Source of the DNA: Capsulimonas corticalis
GTDB taxonomy: Bacteria > Armatimonadota > Armatimonadia > Armatimonadales > Capsulimonadaceae
Length of the DNA stretch: 64,000 nucleotides
Assembly (NCBI RefSeq): GCF_003574315.2
Contig: NZ_AP025739.1
Coordinates: forward strand, 6,324,001 to 6,388,000
Direction: 5' to 3'
Numbering within the stretch: the stretch's first letter is position 1; the number at the start of each line of letters is the position of its first letter. Positions 16,275 to 31,498 of the stretch are shown in pieces. The notes beneath the pieces were generated by a model that saw nothing but the letters and a program-made list of their open reading frames with translations, had not been told where the DNA came from and ran no database searches. The translations under genes were made by a program, and so were the position numbers.

Positions 16275-16364
16275 GAATCAGGTCGAGCACTACGGCGAAA
16301 CCGCATGCTCCACACGAACCACAAAGTTCTGATTCGCGATCGTACCGCCAAACGTCGCCTTCCA

Positions 16365-17220
16365 CTCATCTGTTACTTTAATGACCTAACCTCGCATACA
16401 ATAGAACCACACAATCAATCGGGTGTACGTTTATCGGAAACTATATGAAGAAACCATCTCCAGAGCAGTTGCTAGCCGATACCCAATCCAATATGACCTG
16501 GATTGAGATCGCTGAAAAGCACGGTTATACAGACGCCCGATTTCTCCGCAAGCTTTCGGTACGTTATGGACTTCCACCACGAAGGATAATCCGAAAGCCT
16601 GACAAGTCCACACTCGAAGAAATGATTATTTCTCGTGGGCTGAATATCTATCAGGTTGCGGATATTCTTGGTTACGGTTCAGGTGGATGGTCTAACATCT
16701 ATGCATATTGCCGTCAGTACGGCATCACTTTCGACTTTTCAGCAAACGCCGAATTGAGAAGAATAGAGTTCACTCCTCAACAGAAATCGTTTGTGTATGG
16801 CACTTTGCTAGGAGACGCATACAGGATTGGTTTCGCAAACGATACGAAATACCAACCATAATTGAGAACCGTCGTAACGATCAATTCTCCCTGCGTATCA
16901 ATGCGTCTGTATCTTCTCGGTTTCTAGCGCTGGTGCGTCCTTTTATCCCTTTGTGCATATCCTACAAGTTAGGCGAGCAATAATTTCTTATTGCTTCTCT
17001 GGTTTCTGAGTGCTCGCTAGGCAGATTATCGCCAGAGGTCGGACTATCGCATCATCGGAGTAAATTCTTCTTTTCTCCGACGCCCTCTCACTTAGTCTCT
17101 CACGGTAGCCTGCGAGGGCCTTCCGCCTTGTTGGGTGTCTCCACCTATTCAAGTCAATCAGAGAGGGTTTTACTCGGGCTGGAATTAGGCAGCCATTTTA
17201 TAATGACTGGTGCGAGTGTA
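16365..17220 (-). ncRNA. Group I intron in the capsid gene
   Basis: The conserved pairings can be read on the minus strand. P1 is exon CTCGGGT (17221-17227) with guide GCCCGAG (17173-17179), with the U-G pair at the 5' splice site. P3 is CCCTCTC (17161-17167) with GAGAGGG (17083-17089). P7 is GACTA (17093-17097) with TAGTC (17042-17046). P8 is TCGGAG with CTCCGA (17055-17080). P9 is CTCTGG with CCAGAG (16997-17037). P10 is guide TTCCA with exon-2 TGGAA. The last intron base is G. Splicing rejoins the frame at Gly-Trp. The 856-nt length is explained by a decayed endonuclease gene between P9 and the 3' end. Confidence 0.88.
16445..16983 (+). pseudogene. Decayed LAGLIDADG homing endonuclease, antisense in the intron
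   Basis: The first frame (16445-16861) has a helix-turn-helix-like N-terminus (MTWIEIAEKHGYTDARFLRK, LNIYQVADILGYGSGGW) and then SFVYGTLLGDAYRI, a LAGLIDADG-type motif, before stopping at NDTKYQP. The neighbouring frame continues to 16983 with DQFSLRINASVSSRFLALV and RPFIPLCISYKLGEQ, which looks like the C-terminus of the same family. The distance between the motif and the C-terminal part is too short for an intact enzyme, so an internal deletion plus frameshift is inferred. It is transcribed opposite to the intron. Confidence 0.7.
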
Positions 17221-17676
17221 ACCCGAGGTCGCCCGCTGATTTAATGGATCAGCGGCCCCCGCCGAGCCGAGCGGCTTGATGATGTTCGAGAGGCTTTCGC
17301 CGCCGATCTCCGTCTTCACGAAGGCCATTGCGCCGAAAATGAGAGTGGCGTGGACATCGATACCGGACGCGCCGGCGCCGGTGAAGACCTTGGCCAGCGG
17401 CGATTCCACGAAGCGCACTCCGTACAGCGAGCCCAATTCACCCTCGTACAGGTCTTTGGGCGTCGAGTACTCCTTCACGGCCAGCCACTCAGGGATGCTC
17501 ATGATGTCGTACTTGGAATCGGGTGAGACGATTCCCACGTAATCGCCGTTAATCGGCATGGCGTAGGATTTCTCGAGAGTCCGCACCGCCTTCTTGATCT
17601 CAGCCGATGTGAACTTGTCCGTGCTCGTCACCAGGTTTCGAGCAGTTTTTCCATTCGCATAGATGACATTGGTACT

Positions 17677-17745
17677 TTACCGAATACATCAACTGGGAAT
17701 TCGCTGAGTAGTAAGAGCGTCTTGGAGAGAGAGCGAGTGGGAGTG
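17677..17745. other. Junction between recombinase gene and truncated capsid gene
   Basis: Capsid coding sequence begins abruptly at 17676 after a TAA. The 69 bp to the recombinase stop codon at 17746 hold no gene. A tyrosine-recombinase gene whose 3' end abuts a gene fragment is the usual picture of an attachment site, so the core is probably within or next to 17660-17745. The partner half is not in the window, so the core cannot be fixed by a repeat. Confidence 0.45.
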
Positions 17746-18801
17746 CTAGGATTCGTAGGGCACGACGAGTTTCCCGGCCAGGCCGCGCAGCTTGCGCTTC
17801 CCGCGCCGATCGTAATTCGCGGTGGTCTTGACGTCGGCGTGACCGCAAGCTTTTTGGACCGTAACGATATCCTCGCCGGCATCGAGTGAGTTGCCGACGA
17901 AGCTTCGCCGGAAGTCATGGACGGTTAATTCGTCGACCATCGCTTTTTTGCCGCGTGCTTTGACGATGAGGTAAATCGCGCCGGCAGTGATATTATTCCT
18001 TCCAACCCGGCCGCCTTTATTGATCGCTGGGAAGAGCGGCGCTGCCTTCGCGAGATAAACCGGTCCGTGAGATACAAGATGCGCCAGGTAATCATCCATC
18101 GCGGCCATGGTCCCGTCTGGAGAATACACGACGCGCTGCTTGTCGCCCTTGCCGGCGCGGATCGTCACTTCGCCGGTATCGGGAACATAATCACCGACGA
18201 TCAGATCCGCGATCTCCTGTTCGCGAATCCCGCAGCCGTTGAGCACCGCGAGGATCGCGGCGTCGCGGCGCCCCCTCAGCGTCTGATCCTTTTTGCACGC
18301 TTTAAAGAGAGAGCGCATCTCGCCCTCGGAAATGTCGCGCCCGCGCGGCAGCCGAGTTCCGACCTTGACGGAGAGATCCGCCGCGCGGTGATAATCTTCG
18401 GCGCTCATCAGGCCGAGGCGCCACGACTCTTGAAGCACGCGCTTCAGCGCCGCGATCATTTTCTTGACGGTCGTCGTTTCATAACTTTCAAGTAACACTG
18501 CTCGCAGCGCCGATGTGTGCTTGTAGCGAAGCGCCGCCCAGTCCAGTGTCATGATGTCACATTCACCGTTGCTCAAAATCTCAGCCATAGTCCCGAGCGC
18601 CTGGCGCATCGTCCGGCGCGACCCGGGCGCAAGACTCGCCAGGTACACGGCGGCGGGATGCTCGCAGAGCGGAGGCGGTTCGCCAAGCCGCAACAGATCC
18701 CCTGCTTCATTCACGCCGTCGGCAGCGGCATTTACCAGACGGTCACTATATTCTACGTGGGCGCCTGACGGCAATACGATAATTGGGTTTTCGGTATCCA
18801 T
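17746..18801 (-). CDS. Tyrosine recombinase (phage-type integrase)
   Basis: 351 residues. The SAM-like N-terminal domain covers about 45-140 and the catalytic domain about 155-345. The active-site set is complete: Arg193 (NGCGIREQEIADL), Lys219 or Lys221 (AGKGDKQRVVY), His295 and Arg298 (TVHDFRRS), His321 (CGHADVKTT) and Tyr330 (ANYDRRG). It cuts and rejoins DNA through a 3'-phosphotyrosine. The 3' end faces the broken capsid gene, so it probably made that junction. An extended -10 promoter lies six bases before the ATG and two SOS-type palindromes are upstream. Confidence 0.9.
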   Translation of the reverse strand: MDTENPIIVLPSGAHVEYSDRLVNAAADGVNEAGDLLRLGEPPPLCEHPAAVYLASLAPGSRRTMRQALGTMAEILSNGECDIMTLDWAALRYKHTSALRAVLLESYETTTVKKMIAALKRVLQESWRLGLMSAEDYHRAADLSVKVGTRLPRGRDISEGEMRSLFKACKKDQTLRGRRDAAILAVLNGCGIREQEIADLIVGDYVPDTGEVTIRAGKGDKQRVVYSPDGTMAAMDDYLAHLVSHGPVYLAKAAPLFPAINKGGRVGRNNITAGAIYLIVKARGKKAMVDELTVHDFRRSFVGNSLDAGEDIVTVQKACGHADVKTTANYDRRGKRKLRGLAGKLVVPYES

Positions 18802-18807
18802 TATTGA

Positions 18808-18904
18808 ATTATATCACGGTTTTTAATAATTACTATAGAGAACTTACGTTCTTCACAATAATCGCTAGATCATTATCAGGGCGTGTAAGCGCGAACACGT
18901 GTTC
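18808..18904 (-). promoter_or_regulatory. Recombinase promoter with two GAAC-N4-GTTC boxes
   Basis: On the minus strand TGATATAAT (extended -10; hexamer at 18808-18813) lies only six bases before the recombinase ATG, and no ribosome-binding site fits between, so the mRNA is probably leaderless or nearly so. Upstream are GAACTTACGTTC (18840-18851) and the perfect palindrome GAACACGTGTTC (18893-18904). Both match GAAC-N4-GTTC, the LexA/DinR box of Firmicutes and Actinobacteria. That suggests DNA-damage control of excision; which repressor binds in this host is unknown. Confidence 0.6.
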
Positions 18905-19116
18905 TGAAACTCGTTTTCTAAAACGAATTGCCAAAAACTCTGCGAATAAACTCCTTTGGCGGTGCGCGGCTACAGGTGGCGCGCACAGACGCGTGAACGG
19001 AAATTTCAATATGGCGCGCGGGTGATTTTCAGTTGAATATTCCGGGGGAGCGAGAGCGCGGAAGTTACCGCTTCGCGCTCCTAGTCGACGAATTGGGCGT
19101 TGGTGTAACAGCTACT
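18905..19116. other. Intergenic region with small inverted repeats
   Basis: No gene is visible. It holds TCGTTTT-CT-AAAACGA (18911-18926) and a longer imperfect hairpin of GAGCGCG and CGCGCTC arms at about 19051-19081. The second could act as an inefficient terminator for the SRAP gene on its right, but it lacks a T-tract. Confidence 0.4.
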
Positions 19117-19755
19117 TTAGGGCTTGAACGCCTGGCCCGGAAACGCTTGGAGCGCGCCCTCTGGGAAAGGCCGCAGTAGGCTTTGAAGGTCCTTTGGCGA
19201 GGCGTCCGAAAGCCAGGCGCGCGCCTCGTCCTGGTCCAGGATCACGGGCATACGGTCGTGGTAAGGGCGGATATCGCCATTGGGGTCGCAGGTCACGATG
19301 GCGCATGAGCGGCGCACGCCGCCGTCCGGCATCCGCCATTCGTCCCAGATCCCGGGTAGTCCGAATACTGCGAGATCCGCCGCGGTAAACGGCAAAAGCT
19401 GCTTGGACCCCTTCACCCCCATCCATTCGTAAAAGCCGTTCGCAGGAACGACGCAGCGGCGCTGAGAGAACGCCTGTCGGAACATCGGCGTGGTCGCCAC
19501 CGTTTCCGCGCGCGCATTACCGGGCTTCATACCGCCCTTCGGATCTTTCATCCAGCTTGGCGTGAAACCCCAGTACAGCATTTCGAGCCCTACGGCGCCA
19601 GCGCTGGTCGTCGCGGCGGGCAGCATCTGCCCGAGTGTCATACGCTTTTCCGGACCATCCCTTTCGGGAAGTGCGGAAGCGGCTTGCAGTGAATCGAGGC
19701 GGAAGAAGTCGGCGATTTCGTCGCGGGTCATTTCGATGCGGACGTTATAGCACAT
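19117..19755 (-). CDS. SRAP (HMCES/YedK) abasic-site peptidase-like protein
   Basis: 212 residues from ATG 19755, chosen because GAGGAG precedes it and because it places Cys at position 2 (MCYNVRIEMTRDEI), the residue that forms the DNA-protein crosslink with abasic sites in this family. The other active-site motifs are intact: KPGNARAET, RRCVVPANGFYEW and YHDRMPVIL. SRAP proteins shield abasic sites in single-stranded DNA from error-prone bypass or breakage. It is next to an inactive paralogue, an ImuB-like protein and DnaE2. A longer upstream frame only translates the repeat array in the leader. Confidence 0.9.
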   Translation of the reverse strand: MCYNVRIEMTRDEIADFFRLDSLQAASALPERDGPEKRMTLGQMLPAATTSAGAVGLEMLYWGFTPSWMKDPKGGMKPGNARAETVATTPMFRQAFSQRRCVVPANGFYEWMGVKGSKQLLPFTAADLAVFGLPGIWDEWRMPDGGVRRSCAIVTCDPNGDIRPYHDRMPVILDQDEARAWLSDASPKDLQSLLRPFPEGALQAFPGQAFKP

Positions 19756-19775
19756 GCGGTGACGCTCCTCATAAG

Positions 19776-19867
19776 ATAGAGAATTATTAGATAGAGAATT
19801 ATTAGACAGAGTGTTACAAAATATCGGATCCATTTGACCGAATATCCAATCAATTTGACCGAATATC
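19776..19867 (-). repeat. Two short repeat arrays in the leader of the SRAP gene
   Basis: A 15-bp unit, ATAGAGAATTATTAG on the plus strand, is present twice in tandem (19776-19805). Farther from the gene, ATTTGACCGAATATC occurs twice (19832-19846 and 19853-19867) with a third degenerate copy between the arrays. They fill the gap between the SRAP start codon and the end of the upstream gene. Confidence 0.85.
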
Positions 19868-19870
19868 GAA

Positions 19871-20545
19871 TTAAAGTGATCCGAAGAGGTCGCCAGTTTG
19901 TGGCGAAGGAGGCTTCGGCGCCGCCTTGCTCTTCTCCGCTAAGGTGATGAGAAGCGGAGCGCCGGACCACGGCTGCAACAGAGACAGGACCGCCTTCGGG
20001 GAGCGCTCCTCAGGATTGAGCCACATATCCCATGCCTGCGCCGGCAGGATGACGGGCATGCGGTCGTGGATCTGCGCCATCGTGTCGTTCGGCGTGGTCG
20101 TCACGATCGCGCAGGTTCGGCGCACTTCCTGGCCGTCGGGAGACTTCCATTCGTCCCAGATCCCGGCCGCCGCGATGAAGATCCCGTCGCCGCGCTCGAC
20201 GCGTGCGCGTTTCCCGACGGTTCCCGCGCCCAGACCGTCCACAGTAATGCGCTGATGAAAGAATGGCATAGGGATAACACACCGCCGAATCGTCAGCGGG
20301 CGATTGCCGGCGTTTGCCCGCAGCGTTTCTGCCCGGCTATGGAGCTGTCCCTCTTCGGAGCGCCCCCACGCGATCAGTCCCCAATCAAAAGCGCCGACCC
20401 ATCGCTCGCCTTTATAGGCAAAGACGGTCAGCATCGGCGCGCCGGCGCCGCCGAGCAGCGCACTATCGACAGCGCTCTTCGTCAGGCGCGCCTGGAAAAT
20501 CGTGGCGATGTTCTTTACGATCGTGCGATCGGTATCAGTATCCAT
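19871..20545 (-). CDS. SRAP-family paralogue lacking catalytic residues
   Basis: 224 residues from ATG 20545 (MDTDTDRTIVKNIATIF); an in-frame ATG at 20584 overlaps a TATAAT box. The fold-defining motifs remain (RRCVIPMPFF, AGIWDEWKSPDG, QIHDRMPVIL). However, the start has no Cys at position 2 and the NGFYEW motif, which carries the catalytic Glu, is replaced by MPFFHQR. The C-terminus ends QTGDLFGSL, a Q-x-x-x-L-F-type string that could bind the sliding clamp. It probably cannot crosslink to abasic DNA and may act as a regulator or scaffold. It is divergent from the ImuB-like gene. Confidence 0.8.
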   Translation of the reverse strand: MDTDTDRTIVKNIATIFQARLTKSAVDSALLGGAGAPMLTVFAYKGERWVGAFDWGLIAWGRSEEGQLHSRAETLRANAGNRPLTIRRCVIPMPFFHQRITVDGLGAGTVGKRARVERGDGIFIAAAGIWDEWKSPDGQEVRRTCAIVTTTPNDTMAQIHDRMPVILPAQAWDMWLNPEERSPKAVLSLLQPWSGAPLLITLAEKSKAAPKPPSPQTGDLFGSL

Positions 20546-20662
20546 ATCAACATCCACTACCCCAATTAAAATCCATGCTCCCATTATAGCGACATTTCCA
20601 GCGCTCTTTTTGTAAGCTCGGCGCCGACGTCAAAAATATTTCGCGAAGGGGCAAACTTATGT

Positions 20663-20697
20663 TTGACAGATAGTAGACATGCGGCTATAATGTAGAC
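20663..20697 (+). promoter_or_regulatory. Consensus sigma-70 promoter of the ImuB-DnaE2 unit
   Basis: TTGACA (20663-20668) and TATAAT (20686-20691), both perfect, are 17 bp apart. GTAGACA occurs twice around the -10 box, once in the spacer and once just downstream. That placement suggests a repressor site that keeps a very strong promoter closed. The start codon is 38 bp downstream with GGAGG in between. Confidence 0.85.
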
Positions 20698-20728
20698 AAA
20701 CCGATACCATCGCAACGGAGGGCTGTGC

Positions 20729-22129
20729 ATGATCGTTTGTTTTTCTGTTCCCGCTCTGGGCGTCGCTTGCGAACAGGCGCGCCGCCCGGACCTCGCCGGC
20801 GTTCCCTTCGCTTTGATTACGGATGACGGCGCGATTTTCGCTCCGTCCCAGCTCGCCGCCGTGCGCGGCGTACGTCCTGGACAGTCGATTTCCGCCGCCC
20901 GTACCTTCTGCCCCGCCCTTGTCACCCTGCCCTATGACCATGCCGCCTACCAGAATCGCGCCCGCCTTTTGTGGGATATCGCCGCTGCCGAGAGCAGCAC
21001 CGTCGAGCCCGTAACCCCCGAACTCTTTTTTTTGCTCGCAGGCAGAACATTTGTTCTGAATGACGTGTCCGCATTCGCGGACGCGATGGCGGCCGCTATC
21101 GGGGCGCCGGTGCTCGCCGGAATTGGCGCATCCAAGTTCAGCGCGCGCCGGGCGGCGATGCTGGCGCGCCCTGGCGAGTCCTTCACGATCGCCGCCGGCG
21201 ATGAGCTCGCGCATCTGGGCCGCGTGCCGATCGCGGAAGTCGCCGGCGTGGATGCAAAGTCCCGCGCGCGCCTCGAAAAGCTGGGTGTGCGCACCCTCGG
21301 GCAGGCGGCCGCCCACAACGGAAAGATGCCTAAGGATCTGCGTATCGTCGGCGGACGCCTGGCCGCGCTGGCGATGGGGCGCGACGGGGACCGGGTCCGC
21401 GCCGCCTGGCCGGAGCGATCGGAAGAGGCGAACACGGCGTTTGAGGACGAAACGGAGTATCTGCCGCTGATCGACGCCGCGCTGCTGCGTCTCTCGGAGA
21501 AGATCGCCGCCAAGCTTCAGTCCCGCCATGAATACTGCCGCACGCTGTCCATCCAGGTTGGGCACGCGCGCGGCGTTGCAGATTGCTGGGAGCGCCTGAT
21601 CCTGCCCGCCTCCGACGCGGCGTCCATTCACCGCGGCGCGCGGCGCTTGCTGGAGCGCGGTCGCCCGGCAGCAGGCGTTCTGACATTACGCCTTGTCGCG
21701 GGCGAGCTGGGATCTGGCTCGGGGCTTCAGCTTTCTCTGCTCGACGAGTACGGCGCCGTGATGCCAGCGGAACGAGACCGCAAGACAGCGGCGGCGCTGA
21801 CCTACATTCGGGAGCGCTGGGGCGGCGGCGCTGTGATCACGGCGGAGGCCATGTACGAGGCGACGAAGCGCGCGCTGCGCACGTATCCGCTCGGTCACCA
21901 GAGCCGCGAGGCGGTCGAGGTGCGCCTGCAAGACGGGACGCCGGCGGCGTTCACGGGGAAGAAGACGCGTCATACCGTCGCGCGCGTGCAGAATAGCTGG
22001 CGCGAAACCGACGTCTTCGCGGAGACACCCTCGGAGCGTCAGGTTTGGCGCGTGCAGACGGCCGCCGGCGCGCTGGCGGAGTTGCATGAGGCGGGCGGGG
22101 CCTGGACGCTGCACGCCATGGCTGACTAA
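20729..22129 (+). CDS. imuB: ImuB-like Y-family polymerase homologue
   Basis: 466 residues. Palm and finger regions of a Y-family protein are recognisable, with two helix-hairpin-helix elements near 165-215 (LGRVPIAEVAGVDAKSRARL, LGVRTLGQAA). The catalytic acids are missing: the first motif is CFSVPALGV and the usual S-x-D-E is TPELF (96-100). This is the pattern of ImuB, an inactive polymerase that recruits DnaE2. QLSLL at 334-338 is a clamp-binding motif in the expected place. GGAGG precedes the ATG. ImuA, usually its partner, is not present nearby. Confidence 0.85.
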   Translation: MIVCFSVPALGVACEQARRPDLAGVPFALITDDGAIFAPSQLAAVRGVRPGQSISAARTFCPALVTLPYDHAAYQNRARLLWDIAAAESSTVEPVTPELFFLLAGRTFVLNDVSAFADAMAAAIGAPVLAGIGASKFSARRAAMLARPGESFTIAAGDELAHLGRVPIAEVAGVDAKSRARLEKLGVRTLGQAAAHNGKMPKDLRIVGGRLAALAMGRDGDRVRAAWPERSEEANTAFEDETEYLPLIDAALLRLSEKIAAKLQSRHEYCRTLSIQVGHARGVADCWERLILPASDAASIHRGARRLLERGRPAAGVLTLRLVAGELGSGSGLQLSLLDEYGAVMPAERDRKTAAALTYIRERWGGGAVITAEAMYEATKRALRTYPLGHQSREAVEVRLQDGTPAAFTGKKTRHTVARVQNSWRETDVFAETPSERQVWRVQTAAGALAELHEAGGAWTLHAMAD

Positions 22130-22140
22130 TAATTGCCAAT

Positions 22141-22180
22141 TTTTCTGATAATTATTATCACTTTTTTCTGATAATTATTA
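22141..22180 (+). repeat. Direct repeats before the DnaE2 gene
   Basis: TTTTCTGATAATTATTA occurs at 22141-22157 and 22164-22180, 23 bp start to start. A third degenerate copy runs into the start region of the polymerase gene. They lie between the ImuB-like gene and DnaE2 and could be a regulator site or a slippage-derived leader array. Confidence 0.85.
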
Positions 22181-22223
22181 CCGATTTTTGAATTATGATC
22201 GATCCTTTCGCAACAACCACAAT

Positions 22224-25200
22224 ATGTTTGCACATTTACACGTTCACACTCCGTACAGCTTTCTTGATGGCGCATCGTCGATTGAAGATCTGGTGCGCGC
22301 GGCGGCCTCAATGGGGATGCCCGGGATCGCAATGACGGATCACGACCATGTCAGCGCCGCCGTTAAGTTCACGCAGTGCTGTCGCCAGTACGGCGTCAAG
22401 CCGATCCTGGGCGCCGAGGTGACGATGGAGGACGGGACGCATCTGACCTTGCTGGCCGAGACGCGCGCCGGCTACGCGAACCTGTGCCGCCTGCTCACCA
22501 GCGCCTACGCGGACGGCGGCCGCCTGACGCCGCGCCTGCGCTGGTCGCACCTGCCGGGTCTGTCCTCTGGTCTGATCTGTCTGTCTGGATGCATCAAGGG
22601 CAGGATCGCCGGCCACGTGGCGCGGCACGAGTACGACGCGGCGAAGGCGATGGCCCAGCGGCTCGCGGGATGGTTCGGCGGCGCGTTTTATCTTGAGTTA
22701 CAGGACGATCGCACACCGGATTCGGCGCGGGTGGCCAGGGAGCTTGCGATGCTGGGCGACGCGATTGGAGTTCCCTCCGTCGCAACGAATAACGTTCACT
22801 ACGCCGCGTCCGCCGCCTTCGCGGCCCACGACCTGCTGCGCTGCGTGCGCGCCGGCGTTACGGTCCGCGACATCCATCCAGAGCGGCCGTTCAATAATCA
22901 GCGCTGGCTGAAAAACACGCGGGAGATGCAGGACCTCTTTGGCTGGCGCCCAGACGCGCTGGCGAATACCGTTCGGATTGCCGATCACTGCGAGGATGTC
23001 TTGCCGGGTGGCGCGGATATCACGCCGAGATTCGACGGCGACGCCGCGCGCGAACTGCGCCGCCTCGCGTACGAAGGCGCAAAGCGGCGGTACCGAACCA
23101 TCACCGCGCAGGCGCTCTCCCCTACCCTGCGCGGACGGCTGGAGCATGAACTCTCCGTCATCACGACGCTGGGCTACGCCGACTATATCCTGATGGTCCG
23201 CGATGTCGTGCGCTGGGCCCGGGCGCAGGGGATCCGCGCGACGGGGCGCGGATCCGCCGCCGACTGCTGCGTCGCCTACTGCCTCGATCTGACGGATGTG
23301 GACGTGATCGCTCGGAACCTTCCCTTCGCGCGGTTCCTGAAGCCCGGCAAGACGCCCGACATCGACATGGACTTCCCCAGCTCGCGGCGGGACGAGGTGT
23401 TTGAGCACGTCGTCACGACCTACGGCGAGGAGAACACGGGCGTCGTCTGCACGTTCCATACCTACTGGGCTCGGTCGGCGGTCCGGGATATCGGCAAGGC
23501 GCTTGCGCTTCCGGCGGACGCGCTCTCGTTTCTCGCCTCCCACCTTTCCCACTTCGTGCACGCGAGCGAAATTGGATCCGCGTTCGATACGTACGCCGAG
23601 CTACGGCCGCACAAGGCGCTTCGGGAGCAGTTCCAAATACTCTTCACCTTGTGCGCCTCGATCGCCGGATTCCCGAGGCATATGGGCAGCCATTCATCGG
23701 GCGTCGTCATCAGCCGCGTACCGCTCGCCACCATTGCGCCGCTGACGCCGTCGGCGCGCGGGATCACGCAGATCTGGACGCTCGACAAGGACGACGCCGA
23801 AACGGTGGGCGCCATCAAGTTCGACATCCTGGCGCTCCGGATGCTCTCGGCCGTCGCCGACGCCGAGGACGATCTGCGAGAATCGCATCCGGACTTCCGG
23901 TATGACGATATTCCCATCGACGACACAGCCACTTACAATATGATCCAGAGCGGGAAAGCGATTGGCGCATTCCAGTTCGAGAGCGCCGCCCAGCTCGCGC
24001 TTGCCGTCACGCTCCAACCGACTCACTTCGAGGACCTGGTGGCGTCGGTGGCGCTGATTCGGCCGGGCCCCGTGCGCGGCAACGTCGTCAACCGCTTCGT
24101 GGCGGCGAGGAACGGCTATGCGCGCGCCGACGTGCTTCATACCGCACTGGAGACGGCGCTCGCCAAAACGTATGGGTGCGTCGTCTTCCAAGAGCAAGTC
24201 AACGACGTCTTCCAGGCGATGACAGGCTGCTCGGAGGCTGACGCGGATGCGATGCGAAAGGCGCTCACCAAGCACACCAAAGAAGGCACACTGGATCAAG
24301 CGGGGATGGAGTTCATCGCCCGGGCGCGGGCGCGTCATCCTGATCTCAGGCCGAAGACGGCGTACATGATTTGGAAACAGATCGAAGGCTGGGCAGGATA
24401 TGGCTTTATCGAGGGTCACGCCGCCGCCTTTGCGCTGACGGGATACCGCACGGCCTATCTCTCCGTCCACCATACTGCCGAGTTCTTCGCGGGAATAATG
24501 TCCGAGCAGCCGATGGGCTTCTACAGCGCAAACACCCTGGCCGCCGAAGCGCGCCGGCGCGGCGTGCGGGTTCTACCCCTGGACATCAATGAGAGCGGCG
24601 ATAAGTGTCACGGCGATGGCGACGAGATCCGTCTGGGCCTGCGCCTTCTCTCTGATCTGCGCGCGGACGATATTGCCGCGATCCTTGCGGCGCGCGACCG
24701 CGCGCCGTTCGCGTCGCTGCTTGATTTCTGCGCGCGCCTGCCGCTGCGCCGCGACGCTTTGGAGAACCTGATCCTTGCCGGCGCGTTTGATGCGCTCCAC
24801 TCCGAGCGGCGCGGTCTGCTCTGGGCGCTCGATCAAACTATCGGCGCCGCGCTCTCTTACCGCGCCACCGGCGGCGTTCAGCGCGAGCTCGCTCTCGGCG
24901 ACGCCGCGCGGCTCGCCACTCCGTGTTCGGACATCGACGACTTCAGCGAGTGGGAGCGCTTCCTATGGACGTGGAGGCTGACCGGCGTGACGGCGGAGTG
25001 CCACGTGATGTCGCATTTCCGCGAGCGCCTGGCGGCGCGCGGCTTCATCACGGCGTCCCAGGCGCAGGAGGCGAATGACGGCGCAGTCGTCCGCGTGGCG
25101 GGAATCAACATCCGCCCACACCGGCCGCCGACGCGCTCGGGCAAGCCAGTCCTGTTTTCCAGCCTGGAGGACGAGACAGATATCCTCCAGCTAATCACCT

Positions 25201-25415
25201 TTGGCGAAGCGATCGACCGGTGCACATCCGTTTTTTTGTTGTCCCAGGCGGTTATGGTCGAGGCGCGTGTGCAGCGTAAAGGAAAGGGCGTCACGCTGAT
25301 CGTCCAGCGCGCCGCGCCATTCCGCGTTCCGCGCCTGGCGCAGGAAGTGTCCCAGGGATATCCCGCACGGCCTACGCTGCCCGTGATCGCGCCAACGGAG
25401 TACCAGGTGAAATGA
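22224..25415 (+). CDS. dnaE2: Error-prone DNA polymerase III alpha (DnaE2 type)
   Basis: 1063 residues from ATG 22224 (MFAHLHVHTPYSFLDG), which begins directly with the PHP domain motif; an earlier TTG is less likely. The PHP metal motifs continue in MTDHDHVSAAVKF. The polymerase palm carries TPDIDMDFPSSRRDEV at about 376-390 and AIKFDILALR, giving three catalytic Asp. The C-terminus has an OB-fold region (DGAVVRVAGINIRP) and stops soon after it, as in DnaE2 rather than replicative DnaE1. It performs SOS mutagenic translesion synthesis with ImuB. The next gene overlaps its stop by four bases. Confidence 0.92.
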   Translation: MFAHLHVHTPYSFLDGASSIEDLVRAAASMGMPGIAMTDHDHVSAAVKFTQCCRQYGVKPILGAEVTMEDGTHLTLLAETRAGYANLCRLLTSAYADGGRLTPRLRWSHLPGLSSGLICLSGCIKGRIAGHVARHEYDAAKAMAQRLAGWFGGAFYLELQDDRTPDSARVARELAMLGDAIGVPSVATNNVHYAASAAFAAHDLLRCVRAGVTVRDIHPERPFNNQRWLKNTREMQDLFGWRPDALANTVRIADHCEDVLPGGADITPRFDGDAARELRRLAYEGAKRRYRTITAQALSPTLRGRLEHELSVITTLGYADYILMVRDVVRWARAQGIRATGRGSAADCCVAYCLDLTDVDVIARNLPFARFLKPGKTPDIDMDFPSSRRDEVFEHVVTTYGEENTGVVCTFHTYWARSAVRDIGKALALPADALSFLASHLSHFVHASEIGSAFDTYAELRPHKALREQFQILFTLCASIAGFPRHMGSHSSGVVISRVPLATIAPLTPSARGITQIWTLDKDDAETVGAIKFDILALRMLSAVADAEDDLRESHPDFRYDDIPIDDTATYNMIQSGKAIGAFQFESAAQLALAVTLQPTHFEDLVASVALIRPGPVRGNVVNRFVAARNGYARADVLHTALETALAKTYGCVVFQEQVNDVFQAMTGCSEADADAMRKALTKHTKEGTLDQAGMEFIARARARHPDLRPKTAYMIWKQIEGWAGYGFIEGHAAAFALTGYRTAYLSVHHTAEFFAGIMSEQPMGFYSANTLAAEARRRGVRVLPLDINESGDKCHGDGDEIRLGLRLLSDLRADDIAAILAARDRAPFASLLDFCARLPLRRDALENLILAGAFDALHSERRGLLWALDQTIGAALSYRATGGVQRELALGDAARLATPCSDIDDFSEWERFLWTWRLTGVTAECHVMSHFRERLAARGFITASQAQEANDGAVVRVAGINIRPHRPPTRSGKPVLFSSLEDETDILQLITFGEAIDRCTSVFLLSQAVMVEARVQRKGKGVTLIVQRAAPFRVPRLAQEVSQGYPARPTLPVIAPTEYQVK

Positions 25416-25531
25416 GAGACCGCAAGCTTAAGATGGGATTTTGGGACCGCTCGCCGCCCCGCGTCACGATTTGCGCTCACGAGAACACGATCAGCGCTCG
25501 AAAGAACACGATCAGCGCTCGAAAGAAATAG
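25412..25531 (+). CDS. 39-residue basic protein coupled to DnaE2
   Basis: The ATG overlaps the DnaE2 stop (ATGA). The product begins MRDRKLKMGFWDRSPPRVT and ends with a duplicated, basic unit NTISARK caused by an exact 21-bp tandem duplication (25483-25503 and 25504-25524). No family is known to me. Coupling suggests it is made with the polymerase; a small DNA-binding or regulatory peptide is conceivable. The duplication looks recent because the two copies are identical. Confidence 0.5.
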   Translation: MRDRKLKMGFWDRSPPRVTICAHENTISARKNTISARKK

Positions 25532-25594
25532 CACAGCGGTTGAAATAATTGTTCAAAATAATTGGATAAAATAGAATTTAAGTCAAGGAGCGAT

Positions 25595-26032
25595 ATGAAC
25601 GCATTGGTTATTCAGAACGTAGATGGATTGAATACTCAGAACGTAGATGGATTGGATATTCAGGAGATGAGCATGGCAGAGATAGATGTGACAGAGCGGT
25701 ACAGAGCGACGGCGCTGCCGCTTGCGCCATCGGGCGGTCAGGTTCCCGAAAAGTTCATGAAAGTACTCAAGGCCGCAAATCGAGATGAGGATATGCGCGT
25801 CTACACCGTCAACTTTCGTCTGGCGGAGCCAGGCGAAAACGATCAGGCAGAGCGCGCAAACGAGTCCAAGCAGCGCGGCTCCGTCGCCATCGCGGGAACA
25901 GCGATGGTGCTTGTAGAGTTCGGTGAGGCAAAAGTGGTCGCATGGAACAAGCCGGCGCTCGAACTCCTGGAGCACGAGGCGGCGTTCGAGGAGATGGCGC
26001 TCCGTGCAGTGACCCGCGCCGGGGACGATTGA
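25595..26032 (+). CDS. Unknown protein with duplicated N-terminal octapeptide
   Basis: 145 residues from ATG 25595, with AAGGAG seven bases before it. Residues 7-22 are two copies of an eight-residue unit, QNVDGLNT and QNVDGLDI, from a 24-bp tandem duplication (25612-25635 and 25636-25659). After MSMAEIDV a mixed alpha/beta protein follows (RVYTVNFRLAEPGEND, AGTAMVLVEFGEAKVVAWNKPALELLEHEAAFEEMAL). A plausible promoter is TTGTTC-N17-TAGAAT, which itself lies in a degenerate AT-rich repeat. It converges with the operon on its right. Confidence 0.65.
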   Translation: MNALVIQNVDGLNTQNVDGLDIQEMSMAEIDVTERYRATALPLAPSGGQVPEKFMKVLKAANRDEDMRVYTVNFRLAEPGENDQAERANESKQRGSVAIAGTAMVLVEFGEAKVVAWNKPALELLEHEAAFEEMALRAVTRAGDD

Positions 26033-26102
26033 ATTGCGGCGCATCGCGTGCGCCGGCATTGTATCCCACGCATTATATTGCTGGCGCACGTTGGGGGCGA
26101 CC

Positions 26103-26822
26103 TTATTTGCTTTCGCCTTGCTGCTCTGGCGTTTGCCAGGCGGCATGCCACGGCGAGAATCGGGTTACGATAACCGGATCCTGCCCCTCCCCTTCGAACT
26201 GATCGGCGGTAATATCGACGATCAAGTCATCTTTCTCCAGCCACGCATGCGTAACCGTGCGTCCGTCCGGCGGATACCGATACCGGCAGATATACTTAAA
26301 CTCGCCCATCCCGGCCGCCTTCAAACGGCGCTGCAAGATCTCGGCGGCTGCCCCGCACGCGCCGACGGGAAAGGCGGAAAGCCCTGTGGAGACGTCGTAG
26401 GACCCGCTCTCCAATTCTTTGCGCAGAGATGTCGCCACTGACCGGATATCTTCCTCCATGAGGCCGCTCATGTTCCGTAGCTCGCGAACGGCGTCTTTGA
26501 CCGACATCCCGTCAAATCGCCCCAGAGGATTAACCGGATCCGTCTGCCCAAGTGGATTAGCCGAGTGCGGTCGCTCCAGAGGATTGACAGATTCCGGCGG
26601 CAACGCGCTTTCCGCTCGGAGCGTGACAACCTCGGTGAACTTGCTCTTGGCGATCAGCACTTCGATTGTCTGATCCTTCACATATCGATCGCCGACGACC
26701 AAATGGTTTTTTACGCCTTCAATATTGACCACGGCATATTCCCCATCGATCGCCGTGACGAGGCCCTCAAATGCCCGCTGCCGTGGGTGCTCGATTCGGT
26801 ACCGCTTCCCAATCTGAACCAT
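26103..26822 (-). CDS. Putative Cys-His-Asp hydrolase with SH3-like N-terminus
   Basis: 239 residues. Residues 5-60 look like a KOW/SH3 barrel (GLVTAIDGEYAVVNIEG). A linker repeats NPLx three times (80-101). The C-terminal domain (125-225) has a papain or transglutaminase-like layout: Cys156 in FPVGACGAAAEIL, His192 in VTHAWLE and Asp203 in IVDITADQF. These motifs suggest a thiol peptidase or transferase, but the substrate is unknown. It is the last gene of the leftward operon and has its own array-rich leader, with AGGGAG before the ATG. Confidence 0.6.
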   Translation of the reverse strand: MVQIGKRYRIEHPRQRAFEGLVTAIDGEYAVVNIEGVKNHLVVGDRYVKDQTIEVLIAKSKFTEVVTLRAESALPPESVNPLERPHSANPLGQTDPVNPLGRFDGMSVKDAVRELRNMSGLMEEDIRSVATSLRKELESGSYDVSTGLSAFPVGACGAAAEILQRRLKAAGMGEFKYICRYRYPPDGRTVTHAWLEKDDLIVDITADQFEGEGQDPVIVTRFSPWHAAWQTPEQQGESK

Positions 26823-26825
26823 ATC

Positions 26826-26935
26826 TTACTCCCTGACATTATTACTCGCCCTGAATTACTACCCCAGCATTCTTCCCACAGCATTCTTCCGTCTGAATTA
26901 CTGCCTCTGAATTATTCCCTATAAAATGCCTCTGT
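26826..26935 (-). repeat. Degenerate leader array of about seven units
   Basis: Read on the minus strand, the 110 bp before the gene at 26103-26822 consist of degenerate 13-17 bp units. The clearest are three copies of AGTAATTCAG-type and two adjacent GGAAGAATGCTG copies. The last unit carries AGGGAG and the ATG. A TATAGGGAATAAT sequence at its far end could be a -10 region. Confidence 0.7.
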
Positions 26936-26993
26936 CCCCATTTCTACCCATTTTGCGCGCCGTCAGCGATTGGGAGAAGGGGTATCTGTGGAT

Positions 26994-27455
26994 TCATTGG
27001 GCTTTGCGTTTCTCGAACTGGGCGCTTGCATCGATCACATTGTCTGCAACCTGCATGCTCTTCTTGGATGTGGCGGGTTTGGGCGGTGTATCCTTGACTT
27101 CATCCGGAAGTTTATTTAGGCGCTTCGTCAGCGACTTGATAACACGCTGCCAATAAAGTTTCTTGCGTTCAGCGGCGGCGATTTCCTCATCCTTGTATCG
27201 GAGCATCTGCGATGCCTCCGCCAGTGCGTTTTCGAGGATCCATCGTTCGATCTTGAGAAGATGCGGTTGTCGGATCCAGACATTTTCTCTCGCAATGGCA
27301 ACGCCGGTGCCGCGACTGAATATCACCGGGCGCCCCATTTCGTCACGGATTGTTAGCGCATCCCGGGTCCACTCCGTCAGCGTCCAGACGACTTCCGCAC
27401 CGTCAGACATAATCGGGATTCGTTGCCCGCCACCATGAAAAGACGCGTACCCCAC
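26994..27455 (-). CDS. Unknown coiled-coil protein
   Basis: 153 residues with AAGGAGT before ATG 27455, which is two bases after the upstream stop. The first 60 residues are beta-rich (SDGAEVVWTLTEWTRDALTI, VIFSRGTGVAIARENVWI). From about 65 to 115 a helical coiled-coil-like part follows (WILENALAEASQMLRYKDEEIAAAERKKL), and the tail is basic and disordered. No family is recognised. A 17-codon frame (MNPQIPLLPIADGAQNG) overlaps its stop by ATGA and may or may not be translated. Confidence 0.6.
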   Translation of the reverse strand: MGYASFHGGGQRIPIMSDGAEVVWTLTEWTRDALTIRDEMGRPVIFSRGTGVAIARENVWIRQPHLLKIERWILENALAEASQMLRYKDEEIAAAERKKLYWQRVIKSLTKRLNKLPDEVKDTPPKPATSKKSMQVADNVIDASAQFEKRKAQ

Positions 27456-27457
27456 TT

Positions 27458-28033
27458 TTAGTACTCCTTGCCTGCTGTGTCGGCGCTGCCGGCGATAACG
27501 ACTTCAATCTCTCGAACGAACTGGACCCGGCTTTTGTCCAGCACTAGTATTTCCTGCTCGCCGCGCCGCAAGAACAGCGCCAGAACATCCGCCTTATCCA
27601 CCTGATAGGCGTGGATGCAGTCCGCGCCGCGCTCATACGCGAATCTCGCCGCTGTCTGTGGGGCAACCGTGTAAGCGATCCAATCCGTCTCTCCTGGCCG
27701 GTGGGCGCGATAGACGGTAATCTGATCCGGCATCTGGCGGAAGACGACAAACTCCGACGGCTTCATAAGGCTCGTCTCCCGGTTTTTTCGCGGCGACGAA
27801 AACAGCTTTTTCCACATCTCCAGATCGCTGAAGCCAGTGTACGAAACCCATAGCGTGGATAGAATATGCCAGTAGGCATAAGTCGTCAACGGCTTGCAGC
27901 TTTTGTTGAAGTGGCGAATCGCCGCTGGCGTCCCCGCATATTTGAGGACCTCACGCGCAATCTTCGCGTCCTTCTCGCTTTGACGAAAGTCTGGGCTGAT
28001 GTCTCGCCCCGAAATTGTGGGCGCCGTTTTCAT
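27458..28033 (-). CDS. ADP-ribosyltransferase-like protein
   Basis: 191 residues from ATG 28033 (MKTAPTISGRDISPD), chosen for the GAGGTG before it. The N-terminal half is helical. The C-terminal half has the order of an R-S-E-type ADP-ribosyltransferase: Arg109 in ITVYRAHRPGE, the W-x-x-Y-T segment at 118-122 followed by an AARFAY helix, and an E-x-E at 159-161 (RRGEQEILVL). Phages use such enzymes to modify host proteins. The central Ser is replaced by Thr or Tyr, so activity is not certain. Confidence 0.55.
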   Translation of the reverse strand: MKTAPTISGRDISPDFRQSEKDAKIAREVLKYAGTPAAIRHFNKSCKPLTTYAYWHILSTLWVSYTGFSDLEMWKKLFSSPRKNRETSLMKPSEFVVFRQMPDQITVYRAHRPGETDWIAYTVAPQTAARFAYERGADCIHAYQVDKADVLALFLRRGEQEILVLDKSRVQFVREIEVVIAGSADTAGKEY

Positions 28034-28040
28034 TCTCACC

Positions 28041-28343
28041 TCAAAATCCTCTGACGGCGATCTCATACCAGTAATCGTAAGTCTGGTCCGCCACCTCTGG
28101 CGACATGCCAGAATAGAGTAGCTGAGCATGCATTACAAGCATTCGATTGACGCGAAATGACTGGGTTGCCCAGGCGAAGTGTACATGTCGGCCAGTAAAT
28201 CTTCCATTGCGGGATCGTCGATAAGTAATAGGCGGATTAGACCTTGCTCGAATGTTCGCTTTATCGATGCGAATCGCCCGCTTCGATCCCCTGGCTGGCT
28301 TGACGCAGTTTTCCGCGTCGCCTGGTTTTGTCTCATCAATCAA
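28041..28343 (-). CDS. Small basic protein with TTG start
   Basis: 100 residues. The TTG overlaps the stop of the HAD gene (TTGA) and GGTGGGG lies just upstream, so coupled translation is likely. The N-terminal half is strongly basic (ARGSKRAIRIDKANIRARS, TYRRSRNGRFTGRH); the C-terminal half is helical (RMLVMHAQLLYSGMSPEVAD, QTYDYWYEIAVRGF). It could bind nucleic acid. A competing frame over 28133-28339 exists, so the reading frame is not certain. Confidence 0.45.
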   Translation of the reverse strand: MIDETKPGDAENCVKPARGSKRAIRIDKANIRARSNPPITYRRSRNGRFTGRHVHFAWATQSFRVNRMLVMHAQLLYSGMSPEVADQTYDYWYEIAVRGF

Positions 28344-28879
28344 AGTGCCCCACCATTCAAAATCGCGATCGCGCGGTCCGCGTCCTCGTCCGTCAGTCCG
28401 ACATTGTAATCCGTGCGAACGAAGCAGTCTGGCGGCGTCCCGAAAACCGGGTCGTCGTCGATAACCACGAACCGATCGCACTCCGTCGCGCTGTCCAGGT
28501 AATGCCGAATCTCGGTCCAGCGCTCGCTTTCGAGCATCTGCGGACCTGGACGCCCTTTGGGGATGTCCGTCACATCGATCGTGATGCCGATGACGCGCTT
28601 GCGATGCGCCTGGAGGCCATGGCGCGCCAGCAACGCCCCCAGATACTGCGCGTACCCCTGCGGACAAGTAGAAGAGCGCCACGCCGAAGAAATGACGATG
28701 TACGCGTCCGTCTCCCGGACGATGCGGTTGACGCGCAGGACGGCGGCGGGATCGATCTTCCCCAGGCACCACGCCAGGCGGTCGACGTGGAGACGCGGCT
28801 TGTTTTTGTAGACGTCGCCCTCCATCCAAGCGACGGAATTGAGAACGCCGTCGAAGTCGAGAAAGATCAGTTTCTTCAT
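28340..28879 (-). CDS. HAD-superfamily protein of the RNA-repair-associated type
   Basis: 179 residues. Motif I is FLDFDGVLNS (Asp8, Asp10), motif II is VISSAWRSS and the acidic motif IV is VVIDDDP. This set matches the small HAD domain found in Swiss-army-knife RNA repair proteins and in many phage genes. It would remove a phosphate, possibly a 5' or 2',3' end group; the real substrate is unknown. ATGA couplings on both sides place it firmly in the operon. Confidence 0.78.
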   Translation of the reverse strand: MKKLIFLDFDGVLNSVAWMEGDVYKNKPRLHVDRLAWCLGKIDPAAVLRVNRIVRETDAYIVISSAWRSSTCPQGYAQYLGALLARHGLQAHRKRVIGITIDVTDIPKGRPGPQMLESERWTEIRHYLDSATECDRFVVIDDDPVFGTPPDCFVRTDYNVGLTDEDADRAIAILNGGAL

Positions 28880-29109
28880 ATCGTCACCGAAGACGCCACG
28901 AGCGCCAGCGCGTCCTGCATGTCACCCAGCTGCTCTGAATACATGTACTCATACTCCTGGCCGCCACCGAAACAGAACGTCGCCAGAGCGAAGCATGGAA
29001 ATTCAACGGGCGGTTGCCCATTCTCCGCGCCGAACTGACTGTGCCAGAACTCGTAATCCGCCGCCGATGTCAGCAGCGCCCAGCCGTGAATGATACGAAG
29101 CGGGTTCAT
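28876..29109 (-). CDS. Small unknown protein
   Basis: 77 residues, coupled by ATGA overlaps to the genes on both sides. It is rich in aromatic residues (HGWALLTSAADYEFWHSQFG, FPCFALATFCFGGGQEYEYMY). No family is known to me. The precise overlaps argue that it is real. Confidence 0.62.
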   Translation of the reverse strand: MNPLRIIHGWALLTSAADYEFWHSQFGAENGQPPVEFPCFALATFCFGGGQEYEYMYSEQLGDMQDALALVASSVTI

Positions 29110-29231
29110 TTCTGTGGACCTCTCTTCTTTCGTCGCTTGGCAGTCCCGTACATCTTGTGAATGATGATTGCCTGTGCCGTGGTGACATAAGTTCCGTTAC
29201 ATCCGCGGTAAGGCATGATCTGGCGCTTCAT
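29106..29231 (-). CDS. 41-residue basic protein
   Basis: MKRQIMPYRGCNGTYVTTAQ followed by AIIIHKMYGTAKRRKKRGPQ and a final Lys. The ATG overlaps the stop of the upstream gene (ATGA), and its own stop overlaps the next ATG in the same way. This double coupling is the main support. The C-terminus (KRRKKRG) is strongly basic, so nucleic-acid or ribosome binding is possible. No family is recognised. Confidence 0.55.
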   Translation of the reverse strand: MKRQIMPYRGCNGTYVTTAQAIIIHKMYGTAKRRKKRGPQK

Positions 29232-29710
29232 TTTTGCGTTTCGTCTTTCCCAGTCTGATCTGCATCTATCGCCATTCGATATCCGTCAAACCAGAAAGAC
29301 CGTTCTTTGCCGTCCTGGTATGGGTTTTTGTCCGCGCCCAGTCTCTTCTCCCCTGCGTCATAACCCTGGTTGTAGGCGGTGTATGGATGATGGATGTCGT
29401 CCTGGGCCGGATTATCAGCGTAGGCCGTCAACGGGTCGAGATGACTACTGTCCCTCACCGAGACGCTTTCCTCCAGCCGCCTCGCGCCGACGTCGTCGAT
29501 TGTCGCCTTGATCGGCGCCAGGGCCGTGTCCGCCGCCTCCCGGTAATCGCCCCACGCCTCGCGCGCGGCTCCGGTGGCGTCCTGGAGGCGCTCTGCGGCG
29601 GCTGGGTCATTCGGGGACAACTTCTTGCGGCCAAGGGCGGCGGCGTGGGCGCCGCGCGCGAGGCGCATCCTTCGCGAAGCGCGCTCTAATTTATTCGGTT
29701 GTTCGTCCAT
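29228..29710 (-). CDS. Unknown acidic-tailed helical protein
   Basis: 160 residues from ATG 29710 (MDEQPNKLERASRRMRLARG), seven bases after GGAG. A helical first half (ARGAHAAALGRKKLSPNDPA, AAREAWGDYREAADTALAP) is followed by a polar region with HHPYTAYNQGYDAGEKRLG and KERSFWFDGYRMA. The latter resembles the compact YxxGYxxG / FWxGY modules often found in small phage proteins. The start lies inside the end of the upstream gene. Confidence 0.6.
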   Translation of the reverse strand: MDEQPNKLERASRRMRLARGAHAAALGRKKLSPNDPAAAERLQDATGAAREAWGDYREAADTALAPIKATIDDVGARRLEESVSVRDSSHLDPLTAYADNPAQDDIHHPYTAYNQGYDAGEKRLGADKNPYQDGKERSFWFDGYRMAIDADQTGKDETQK

Positions 29711-30227
29711 CGGAGTCTCCATATTTGGCAAATATCAATTCCTCAACTTGCATCCTCAGCTTTTGGAAACCGAGTTCAAGTTTAGGATCATTGTTCTCTT
29801 GGGGCATAAAGGCGGACCCCCAGCCGCAAAGCGCATCCATCAAGTCATAGCAATCATCAGGATCTAAGTCGATGCCGTTTTCAATGAAGTGCGCGTATTC
29901 CCCTTGTTTAGCGTAATCTGAGAGGCAGTGGTAAAGTCGGACGCCACAAACAACGCAATGCTCAGGATTATCGTACTCAAACCCAGCGCTAGAGTTTATC
30001 CAGAGATCTTCAGGGACGGCGATAGGCGTATATGGCGCGGCAACAATTCCGCGCTTTATGAGTTGCTCTTCCTGATATTCTTCAGCGCATTTCAGACAAT
30101 GGCAGACGCCTGTTTCATCAAAGCACTCAATCCAGTAGAGATATTCGATTTCCGCGCGCTCCGCGAAAGGCTGGATCAGAGCCGCCAGCAAAGTCGCCTC
30201 AGAAGTGCGTGTATATACTTGCGTCAT
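29691..30227 (-). CDS. Unknown Cys-containing protein
   Basis: 178 residues, ATGA-coupled to the upstream gene. Two CxxC pairs, CHCLKC near residue 44 and CVVCGV near 91, could bind one zinc ion. The C-terminal half is acidic (GIDLDPDDCYDLMDALCGWG). No family is recognised. It is transcribed from the strong promoter at about 30990. Confidence 0.6.
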   Translation of the reverse strand: MTQVYTRTSEATLLAALIQPFAERAEIEYLYWIECFDETGVCHCLKCAEEYQEEQLIKRGIVAAPYTPIAVPEDLWINSSAGFEYDNPEHCVVCGVRLYHCLSDYAKQGEYAHFIENGIDLDPDDCYDLMDALCGWGSAFMPQENNDPKLELGFQKLRMQVEELIFAKYGDSDGRTTE

Positions 30228-30619
30228 CGCTTTTGTCCTCGTACACTGACGGCTTTTTCAAGCGCTATCTTTGCGTACCACAATTTATCTTCAGCTTGGC
30301 GTAGTCGAGATTCAACGTCTTTCTGCTCTTTGCGGATTCCGACAATATCTTCTTCTAAACGCGCGATATTCTTTCTGATCTCCCGCGCGGCCATCGACTT
30401 GCGCGCCCTGATCCGCAGCTGCCGACGTGTCAGGGTGATCATAGCATCCATCCGCCTACGCCATGCCAGATTGGCATTCGGCGTACCGCACTGATCCACC
30501 AGATCAGCGAGCGAGCGGTTGATATAATCGTCAACTTCATCGCCGCCCGAAACGACCAGGTGAGCAAAACGTCCGCCCATTCTGTTTCGCAGGTGATCCA
30601 GATCAAGCGCCTGGTTCAT
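30224..30619 (-). CDS. Helical protein, probable nucleic-acid-associated
   Basis: 131 residues. Almost entirely helical, with a basic centre (RRRMDAMITLTRRQLRIRAR) and a coiled-coil C-terminus (IRKNIARLEEDIVGIRKEQ, KDVESRLRQAEDKLW). No named family. It is the second gene of the operon and is coupled to the next by ATGA. Confidence 0.6.
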   Translation of the reverse strand: MNQALDLDHLRNRMGGRFAHLVVSGGDEVDDYINRSLADLVDQCGTPNANLAWRRRMDAMITLTRRQLRIRARKSMAAREIRKNIARLEEDIVGIRKEQKDVESRLRQAEDKLWYAKIALEKAVSVRGQKR

Positions 30620-30667
30620 CGGATCACTCCTTCAGGGCGGAGGATTTCTCCCCCGCCCCTTCCCCGT

Positions 30668-30907
30668 TTAGTACCGTGTGTCGCGCAGGTCGTGGATGTC
30701 CATTTCCTGCTGGGCGGCGATTTCCGCCTGCTTGTCCGCCTGCTCGCCGCAGATGGTGCAGTTCTCGCCGGCGTCGATGGCGCTTTGGCAGAAGTTGCAG
30801 ATCACCAGTTCGCCGGTGACGAGCATGGAGAGGACGATCCCTTGATCGATGGCGTCTTCGTCCGCCATGTTCTCCATCACCCACCTCGTCGCGTCTTCGA
30901 TTGTCAT
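30668..30907 (-). CDS. Small zinc-ribbon protein, first gene of the operon
   Basis: 79 residues with AAGGAG before ATG 30907. Cys pairs ICNFCQ and NCTICGEQ form a zinc ribbon like those of short TraR/DksA-type phage proteins, though the DksA coiled coil is missing. The short acidic helix before it could touch RNA polymerase. The gene is read from a promoter with an operator in its spacer, so it is probably part of an early, repressible unit. Confidence 0.62.
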   Translation of the reverse strand: MTIEDATRWVMENMADEDAIDQGIVLSMLVTGELVICNFCQSAIDAGENCTICGEQADKQAEIAAQQEMDIHDLRDTRY

Positions 30908-30974
30908 TCTTCGCTTTTCTCCTTTCGGTTTCGGGCTTGCTCTGGAAGGTCCGCCCTGTTTGTCTTACGTATAT

Positions 30975-31038
30975 ATAATAGCATAAAAATTATGCTAAGT
31001 CAAGCATTTCGGACACACTTAGCATAAAAATTATGGCC
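30975..31038 (-). promoter_or_regulatory. Operon promoter with operator in the spacer, plus second operator
   Basis: On the minus strand TTGACT (30998-31003), a 17-bp spacer and TATTAT (30975-30980). The 19-bp palindrome TAGCATAA-AAA-TTATGCTA (30979-30997, as read on the plus strand) covers the spacer. A second copy at 31020-31038 has one decayed arm (TTATGGCC). The start codon of the operon is about 68 bp downstream. Confidence 0.85.
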
Positions 31039-31149
31039 TTTGCCGGGATTGTGGTAGAATGGAAACAGCTTCCTTTCGGGAGCCGCGCTGGCGGCGCTTG
31101 CTCTGGAACAGTAAAGTCCCGCCGCCGGCGTATCAATCTCGCCTATGCG

Positions 31150-31169
31150 ATTATTGATCGATCAATAAT
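31150..31169. promoter_or_regulatory. 20-bp perfect palindrome, also at 41614
   Basis: ATTATTGATCGATCAATAAT is followed by TTG, giving 23 identical bases shared with a second site at 41614-41636. It stands 16 bp upstream of the -35 box for the ribbon-helix-helix gene. A dimeric regulator site is likely. The stretch 31039-31149 to its left holds no gene. Confidence 0.7.
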
Positions 31170-31184
31170 TTGAGCGCCTTGCAA

Positions 31185-31213
31185 TTGACTTAGCATAATA
31201 TTTATGCTATTAT
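31185..31213 (+). promoter_or_regulatory. Promoter of the RHH gene with operator in the spacer
   Basis: TTGACT (31185-31190), 17 bp, TATTAT (31208-31213). The palindrome TAGCATAA-TAT-TTATGCTA (31191-31209) fills the spacer, exactly as in the divergent promoter. The -10 box ends six bases before the ATG at 31220, so the transcript should start at or next to the start codon. Confidence 0.88.
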
Positions 31214-31219
31214 AAAGTC

Positions 31220-31432: not shown

Positions 31433-31452
31433 AGGGTACTCACAATGAAGAT

Positions 31453-31490: not shown

Positions 31491-31498
31491 GTTGTGCT

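Follow-up and report, generated by a model that had tools for sequence, protein, structure and literature searches.

Why does the frame of a phage major capsid gene run into a stop codon, only to resume 856 nt further on? The gene lies in a 64,000-nt stretch of DNA from Capsulimonas corticalis (NZ_AP025739.1, positions 6,324,001 to 6,388,000), referred to here as the window. Left unspliced, the minus-strand capsid frame ends in ...DPLNQRATSG, meets a stop about 12 codons past 17221 and is taken up again as WKATFGGTIANQNFVVRVEHAVSP. What lies between the two parts, 17220-16365, is a group I intron, on which the Rfam model RF00028 is silent; the gene that it interrupts encodes a major capsid protein of the N4-gp56 type. 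Very probably, this intron belongs to a family of group I introns seated at the same codon, is expected to splice itself out of the capsid mRNA and carries an endonuclease gene that is broken.

Exons, junctions and capsid family

The last base of exon 1 is U17221 (ACC TCG GGT) and the first base of exon 2 is T16364 (TGG AAG GCG); joined, the exons read NQRATSG-WKATFGG in frame. The final base of the intron is G16365, and a G is likewise found in those same-site relatives in which the 3' junction has been placed. Relatives without the insert carry DPLNQRxxxGWK unbroken, and one uninterrupted relative, MT836150, reads through the junction point as DPLNQRSSIGWKLLKTAKI. The fixed bases of GG(N)-TGGAA are invariant in 67 uninterrupted capsid loci among those fetched from IMG/VR. 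The splice sites proposed in an earlier note on this DNA (17221 and 16364) are thus supported by the in-frame joining and by the uninterrupted relatives, a comparison that the note itself had suggested. Its choice of the N4-gp56 family is supported as well: the capsid protein, joined from its three pieces (Table 1), scores 275.9 bits against TIGR04387 (N4-gp56 major capsid), whose curated cut-off is 60 bits, and covers profile positions 5-323 of 324.

Table 1. Coordinates of the features of the locus (positions in the window unless given on G000:C1)
Feature	Position	Strand	Basis or remark
Group I intron, 856 nt	16365..17220	-	Junction reading; same-site homologues; covariance model R1, 118 bits, E 1.7e-22
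Capsid exon 1, C-terminal half up to intron	17221..17673	-	phrog_1357; TIGR04387 on joined protein
Capsid exon 2 (WKATFGGTIANQNFVVRVEHAVSP, stop)	16290..16364	-	
Capsid gene, N-terminal half	G000:C1:6441448-6441878		About 100 kb from the remaining capsid parts
Internal guide sequence, UUCCA-GCCCGAG	17173..17184	-	P1 with exon 1 (17227-17221), P10 with exon 2 (16364-16360)
P3 (17167-17161 / 17089-17083) around P4, P5 with GAGA loop, and P6	17083..17167	-	
P7 (17097-17093 GACUA / 17046-17042 UAGUC) and P8 (17080-17075 / 17060-17055)	17042..17097	-	
P9 (17037-17032 / 17002-16997) and P9.1 (16994-16988 / 16983-16977)	16977..17037	-	
Antisense homing-endonuclease gene, 5' part	16445..16861	+	Encodes an HTH domain and, ahead of a stop, LAGLIDADG motif 1 (GTLLGDAY)
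Antisense endonuclease gene, 3' remnant (TIIENRRNDQFSLRINASVSSRFLALVRPFIPLCISYKLGE)	16855..16983	+	Other frame
Left part of the second prophage (about 99.8 kb) in the capsid gene	17674..64000	.	Continues to about G000:C1:6441455
Left attachment site of the second prophage	17666..17692	-	8-bp core ACCAATGT (17666-17673), 16-bp arm TTGATGTATTCGGTAA (17692-17677)

Structure of the intron RNA

The guide pairs with both exons. In P1, CUCGGGU (17227-17221) faces GCCCGAG (17179-17173) with seven of seven pairs and a U.G pair at the cut, and in P10 the adjoining part of the guide, UUCCA (17184-17180), forms five pairs with UGGAA (16364-16360). P3, P4, P5, P6, P7, P8, P9 and P9.1 are present in group I order, with the P3/P7 pseudoknot. 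In the six same-site introns compared over P3-P9, 99.4% of cells are paired and 18 of 29 pairs show double changes; none of 500 shuffles came as high, and slid controls were 33-46% paired. RNAalifold, unaided, recovered P3-P6, P8 and P9, with compensation in 22 of 34 pairs. Across 16 related introns pairing is 98.7% and double changes occur in 27 of 33 core pairs, counts that are biased towards the structure, as this alignment was fitted to the helices other than P7; the count for P7, which was not in the model, is unbiased, and this helix is 100% paired and includes three A-U to G-C swaps. Related introns keep the structure through compensatory changes, so that it goes beyond chance, and the elements read from the single sequence in the earlier note (P1, P3, P7, P8, P9, P10, the U-G pair and the terminal G) are all borne out. 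At a few joining-segment bases conserved in the relatives the window intron differs, for example UGAU against UAAU between P3 and P4.

Why, then, is the Rfam model silent? Scans of the window with RF00028 over sub-ranges and with a series of thresholds, permissive settings included, gave no match; the closest and intact same-site relatives are missed too, again at permissive thresholds. The earlier note had named the lack of a group I covariance match as grounds for rejecting the intron. The Rfam part of that comparison did come out negative, but controls make it an invalid refutation: the experimentally spliced introns of LittleE and BAKA score 30.7 and 28.6 bits, and since these proven introns also lie under the gathering cut-off of 50 bits, silence does not refute. 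RF00028 is a detection model and no defining feature of group I introns. A covariance model made from five same-site relatives with the window left out (R1) finds the intron at 118 bits (E 1.7e-22), its sole match within the window and the only copy in the host genome. Over 291 genomes of the host phylum R1 returned the window copy only, with no relative in neighbouring bacteria, and among 78 uninterrupted capsid loci it gave nothing but one chance-level match. It did not match the LittleE intron, whose sequence is too distant. R1 also matches capsid introns at other points of the gene (L113, L124, L125 and two introns of L119), and RF00028 recognises several N4-gp56 capsid introns (78.7 bits for L071, 75.8 for L084 and 65.2 for one intron of L119). 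Because that L119 intron is matched by both models, the R1 lineage is tied to recognised group I introns. Guide pairing, core covariation and the R1 match together uphold the group I identity first put forward from the sequence.

How would such an RNA leave the capsid message? Two transesterifications of the usual kind are expected: guanosine would attack at U17221, and the freed exon would then attack G16365, restoring ...NQRATSG-WKATFGG.... In the relatives, the LAGLIDADG endonuclease, encoded mostly on the opposite strand, would cut intron-less capsid genes, into which the intron would be copied. Catalytic activity, splicing in the cell and homing are predictions made from the sequences.

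Relatives at the same codon and introns elsewhere

Homologous introns occur at the identical codon in 10 other distinct phage or prophage loci, found in IMG/VR contigs and in assemblies of Clostridia and Latescibacterota. The truncated endonuclease ORF of the window led to L105 (IMGVR_UViG_3300046373_000240), and the L105 enzyme as query led to L107, L108, L109/L110, L111/L112 and L191-L195. The IMG/VR set comprises L105, L107, L108, L109/L110 and L111; L112 is a second contig, closely similar to L111, that ends inside the endonuclease gene before the capsid junction. The bacterial assemblies contribute L191-L194 (Clostridia, Bacillota; L191 from water-buffalo cecum) and L195 (Latescibacterota), and the bacterial host taxa of the relatives come from these assemblies, the IMG/VR contigs being without host names. 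Other routes were barren: intron DNA gave chance matches only against phage records, and neither a single-protein capsid search in IMG/VR nor an A1 alignment search in genome contigs returned anything usable.

The guide forms seven of seven pairs with the last seven exon bases in 10 of the 11 same-site loci, and six of seven, in the homologous register, in L107. The exon ends differ among these loci (CUCGGGU, AACGGGU, AGCGGGU, GAUCGGU, CGUGGGU and others), yet the guide co-varies with them. The last exon base is U in all 11 intron loci, against T in only 22 of the 67 uninterrupted alleles. A comparison of capsid, endonuclease and core identities gave no clear sign of lateral transfer; the distribution across loci suggests lateral movement of the intron. 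A single intron lineage occupies one codon in phages of unrelated bacteria, with a host gene family and an insertion site that are probably new. It spans phages of Clostridia, of Latescibacterota and of the window's host phylum, and the 67 uninterrupted alleles provide natural empty sites for homing tests.

Several further introns interrupt N4-gp56 capsid genes at other points. Two IMG/VR loci (L071:4802-5009 and L084:4794-5007) hold group I introns of about 245 nt between DPL and NQ, seven codons upstream, and lack an endonuclease gene. In one locus (L113:2932-4064) the capsid intron lies around residue 124 and holds an antisense endonuclease gene, whereas in L124/L125 introns near residue 93-98 carry a sense endonuclease; in L119:2415-3720 a single capsid gene is interrupted by two introns, at points near residue 93-98 and farther upstream. 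The introns of L071, L084 and L119 share with the window the N4-gp56 capsid gene and the group I core and differ in their insertion points.

Mobile group I introns with homing endonucleases are familiar from essential phage genes, as in T4 td and the SPO1-type introns, which reside in nucleotide-metabolism or polymerase genes and carry GIY-YIG or HNH endonucleases in the sense direction. The window intron is an element of this kind, a group I intron with a homing-endonuclease gene, here broken, in an essential phage gene, but host gene, enzyme type and orientation differ. A closer parallel in a capsid gene is gp13 of mycobacteriophage LittleE, with an intron of about 820 nt whose splicing was proven by RT-PCR and protein sequencing; the same paper cites a capsid intron in Tuc2009 (PMC3706429). 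LittleE resembles the window in the major capsid gene, the U before the intron, the terminal G, the antisense LAGLIDADG gene and a near-equal length, and differs in being an unrelated phage with another insertion site and an intron that R1 does not match. Major capsid genes of Delta and Zeta crAss-like phages also bear group I introns, in some cases more than one (PMC7886860); these are other phages, and the likeness to the window is one of description only. The earlier note did not know introns in capsid genes of N4-gp56-type phages as described; group I introns in capsid genes are a kind already on record in LittleE (PMC3706429) and crAss-like phages (PMC7886860), and the present case extends them to the N4-gp56 family. 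In the full-text literature N4-gp56 and intron came together in one paper, which mentions each term once. Since this lineage escapes the standard Rfam model, annotation is likely to treat the capsid genes of such phages as broken when they are only spliced.

Endonuclease remnant, second prophage and rival readings

The endonuclease gene is intact in L105, L107, L108 and L110. The 306-residue antisense enzyme of L105 matches LAGLIDADG_2 (E 2.6e-34); its relatives in the PDB are I-SceI and a second intron endonuclease, and among phage records it finds only distant LAGLIDADG proteins. The window keeps roughly the first 126 residues and, in another frame, roughly the last 40; the stretch between them, second LAGLIDADG motif included, has been lost, and the 5' part is 62% identical to residues 2-126 of the L105 enzyme. 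With its endonuclease gene deleted and frameshifted, the window intron should be incapable of homing on its own. The earlier note had mentioned neither this gene nor the second prophage described below. In the Latescibacterota locus (L195:2121-3400) the same-site intron carries its endonuclease gene in the sense direction, which suggests that intron and endonuclease gene combined more than once. A promoter scan of the window gave sites not clearly above shuffles and none ahead of the endonuclease gene; -10-like boxes (TACAAT, TATAAT) spotted by eye upstream of endonuclease genes could, at a guess, be promoters.

Apart from the intron, a second prophage of about 99.8 kb divides the capsid gene; its edge is position 17676, where the annotation of the earlier note stopped. 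Its attachment site has perfect 16-bp inverted-repeat arms and the 8-bp core ACCAATGT, and it is inserted at the conserved GTNV codons of the first prophage's capsid gene. Without it, the flanks join in frame as STGTNV-IYANG, and both capsid halves are open. At the right end of the inner prophage is a large serine recombinase with Resolvase and Recombinase domains, and at the left end a tyrosine integrase; this prophage also encodes a DnaE-type polymerase, methyltransferases and its own HK97-type capsid gene (PF05065; phrog_10). Genes for terminase, portal, adaptor and internal virion proteins are still present in the outer prophage; in the part scanned it showed neither an integrase nor a replication module of its own. 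Because the gene is split in this way, capsid protein is not obtainable by splicing alone, and in the lysogen prophage excision would be needed as well. The earlier proposal that virion production depends on splicing is to that extent incomplete.

Could the insert be a structural relic, group I by descent but neither spliced nor needed, and decaying alongside its endonuclease gene? The deleted and frameshifted endonuclease gene, the split of about 99.8 kb and the lack of an integrase or replication module in the scanned part of the outer prophage would all fit. However, no damage is seen in any helix, in the guide pairing or at either splice site, and the serine-recombinase element is cleanly seated between two open capsid halves that would rejoin in frame, which leaves room for a live allele. 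A relic is thus conceivable but rather unlikely. With the capsid gene disrupted upstream by the prophage, splicing may be under relaxed selection in this genome; judged from its sequence, the intron has probably kept the ability to splice and lost that of homing by itself.

Alternatively, the insert might be a free-standing homing-endonuclease gene, an intein or some other insertion that merely resembles an intron, as the presence of an endonuclease gene and the failure of Rfam to recognise the RNA might suggest. A capsid frame that meets a stop shortly past the junction rules out an intein, the endonuclease is encoded on the other strand, and readings of this sort leave guide pairing and core covariation unaccounted for; the covariation refutes them in practice, and they are very improbable. 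Still harder to credit is a group II intron or another self-splicing class, for which nothing was found: no Rfam group II model matched at any threshold, the order of the P3/P7 pseudoknot, the U at the 5' site, the terminal G and the guide are group I marks, and R1 and RF00028 converge on one L119 intron. The self-splicing group I intron, then, is the reading to retain. On a wider view, the N4-gp56 capsid gene might be a standing target of mobile DNA at near-invariant codons, with introns at at least four points and a serine-recombinase prophage at GTNV, and capsid production in this lysogen might be under two locks, exact removal of the inner prophage and then splicing; this broader idea is doubtful.

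Some genes of the two prophages deserve a brief mention. The outer prophage encodes a GDSL-lipase-like protein amid its tail genes (window 13244-14809). A weak similarity, far under the cut-off of the family, links the inner prophage's serine recombinase (L003:3766-5343) to XisF, which in cyanobacteria acts as the recombinase for excision of the fdxN element. Also in the inner prophage (window 20729-25415), a Y-family polymerase-like gene, ImuB-like by reading, adjoins the DnaE-type polymerase, and two neighbouring genes resemble SOS-response peptidases (SRAP); the group is possibly a mutagenesis cassette.
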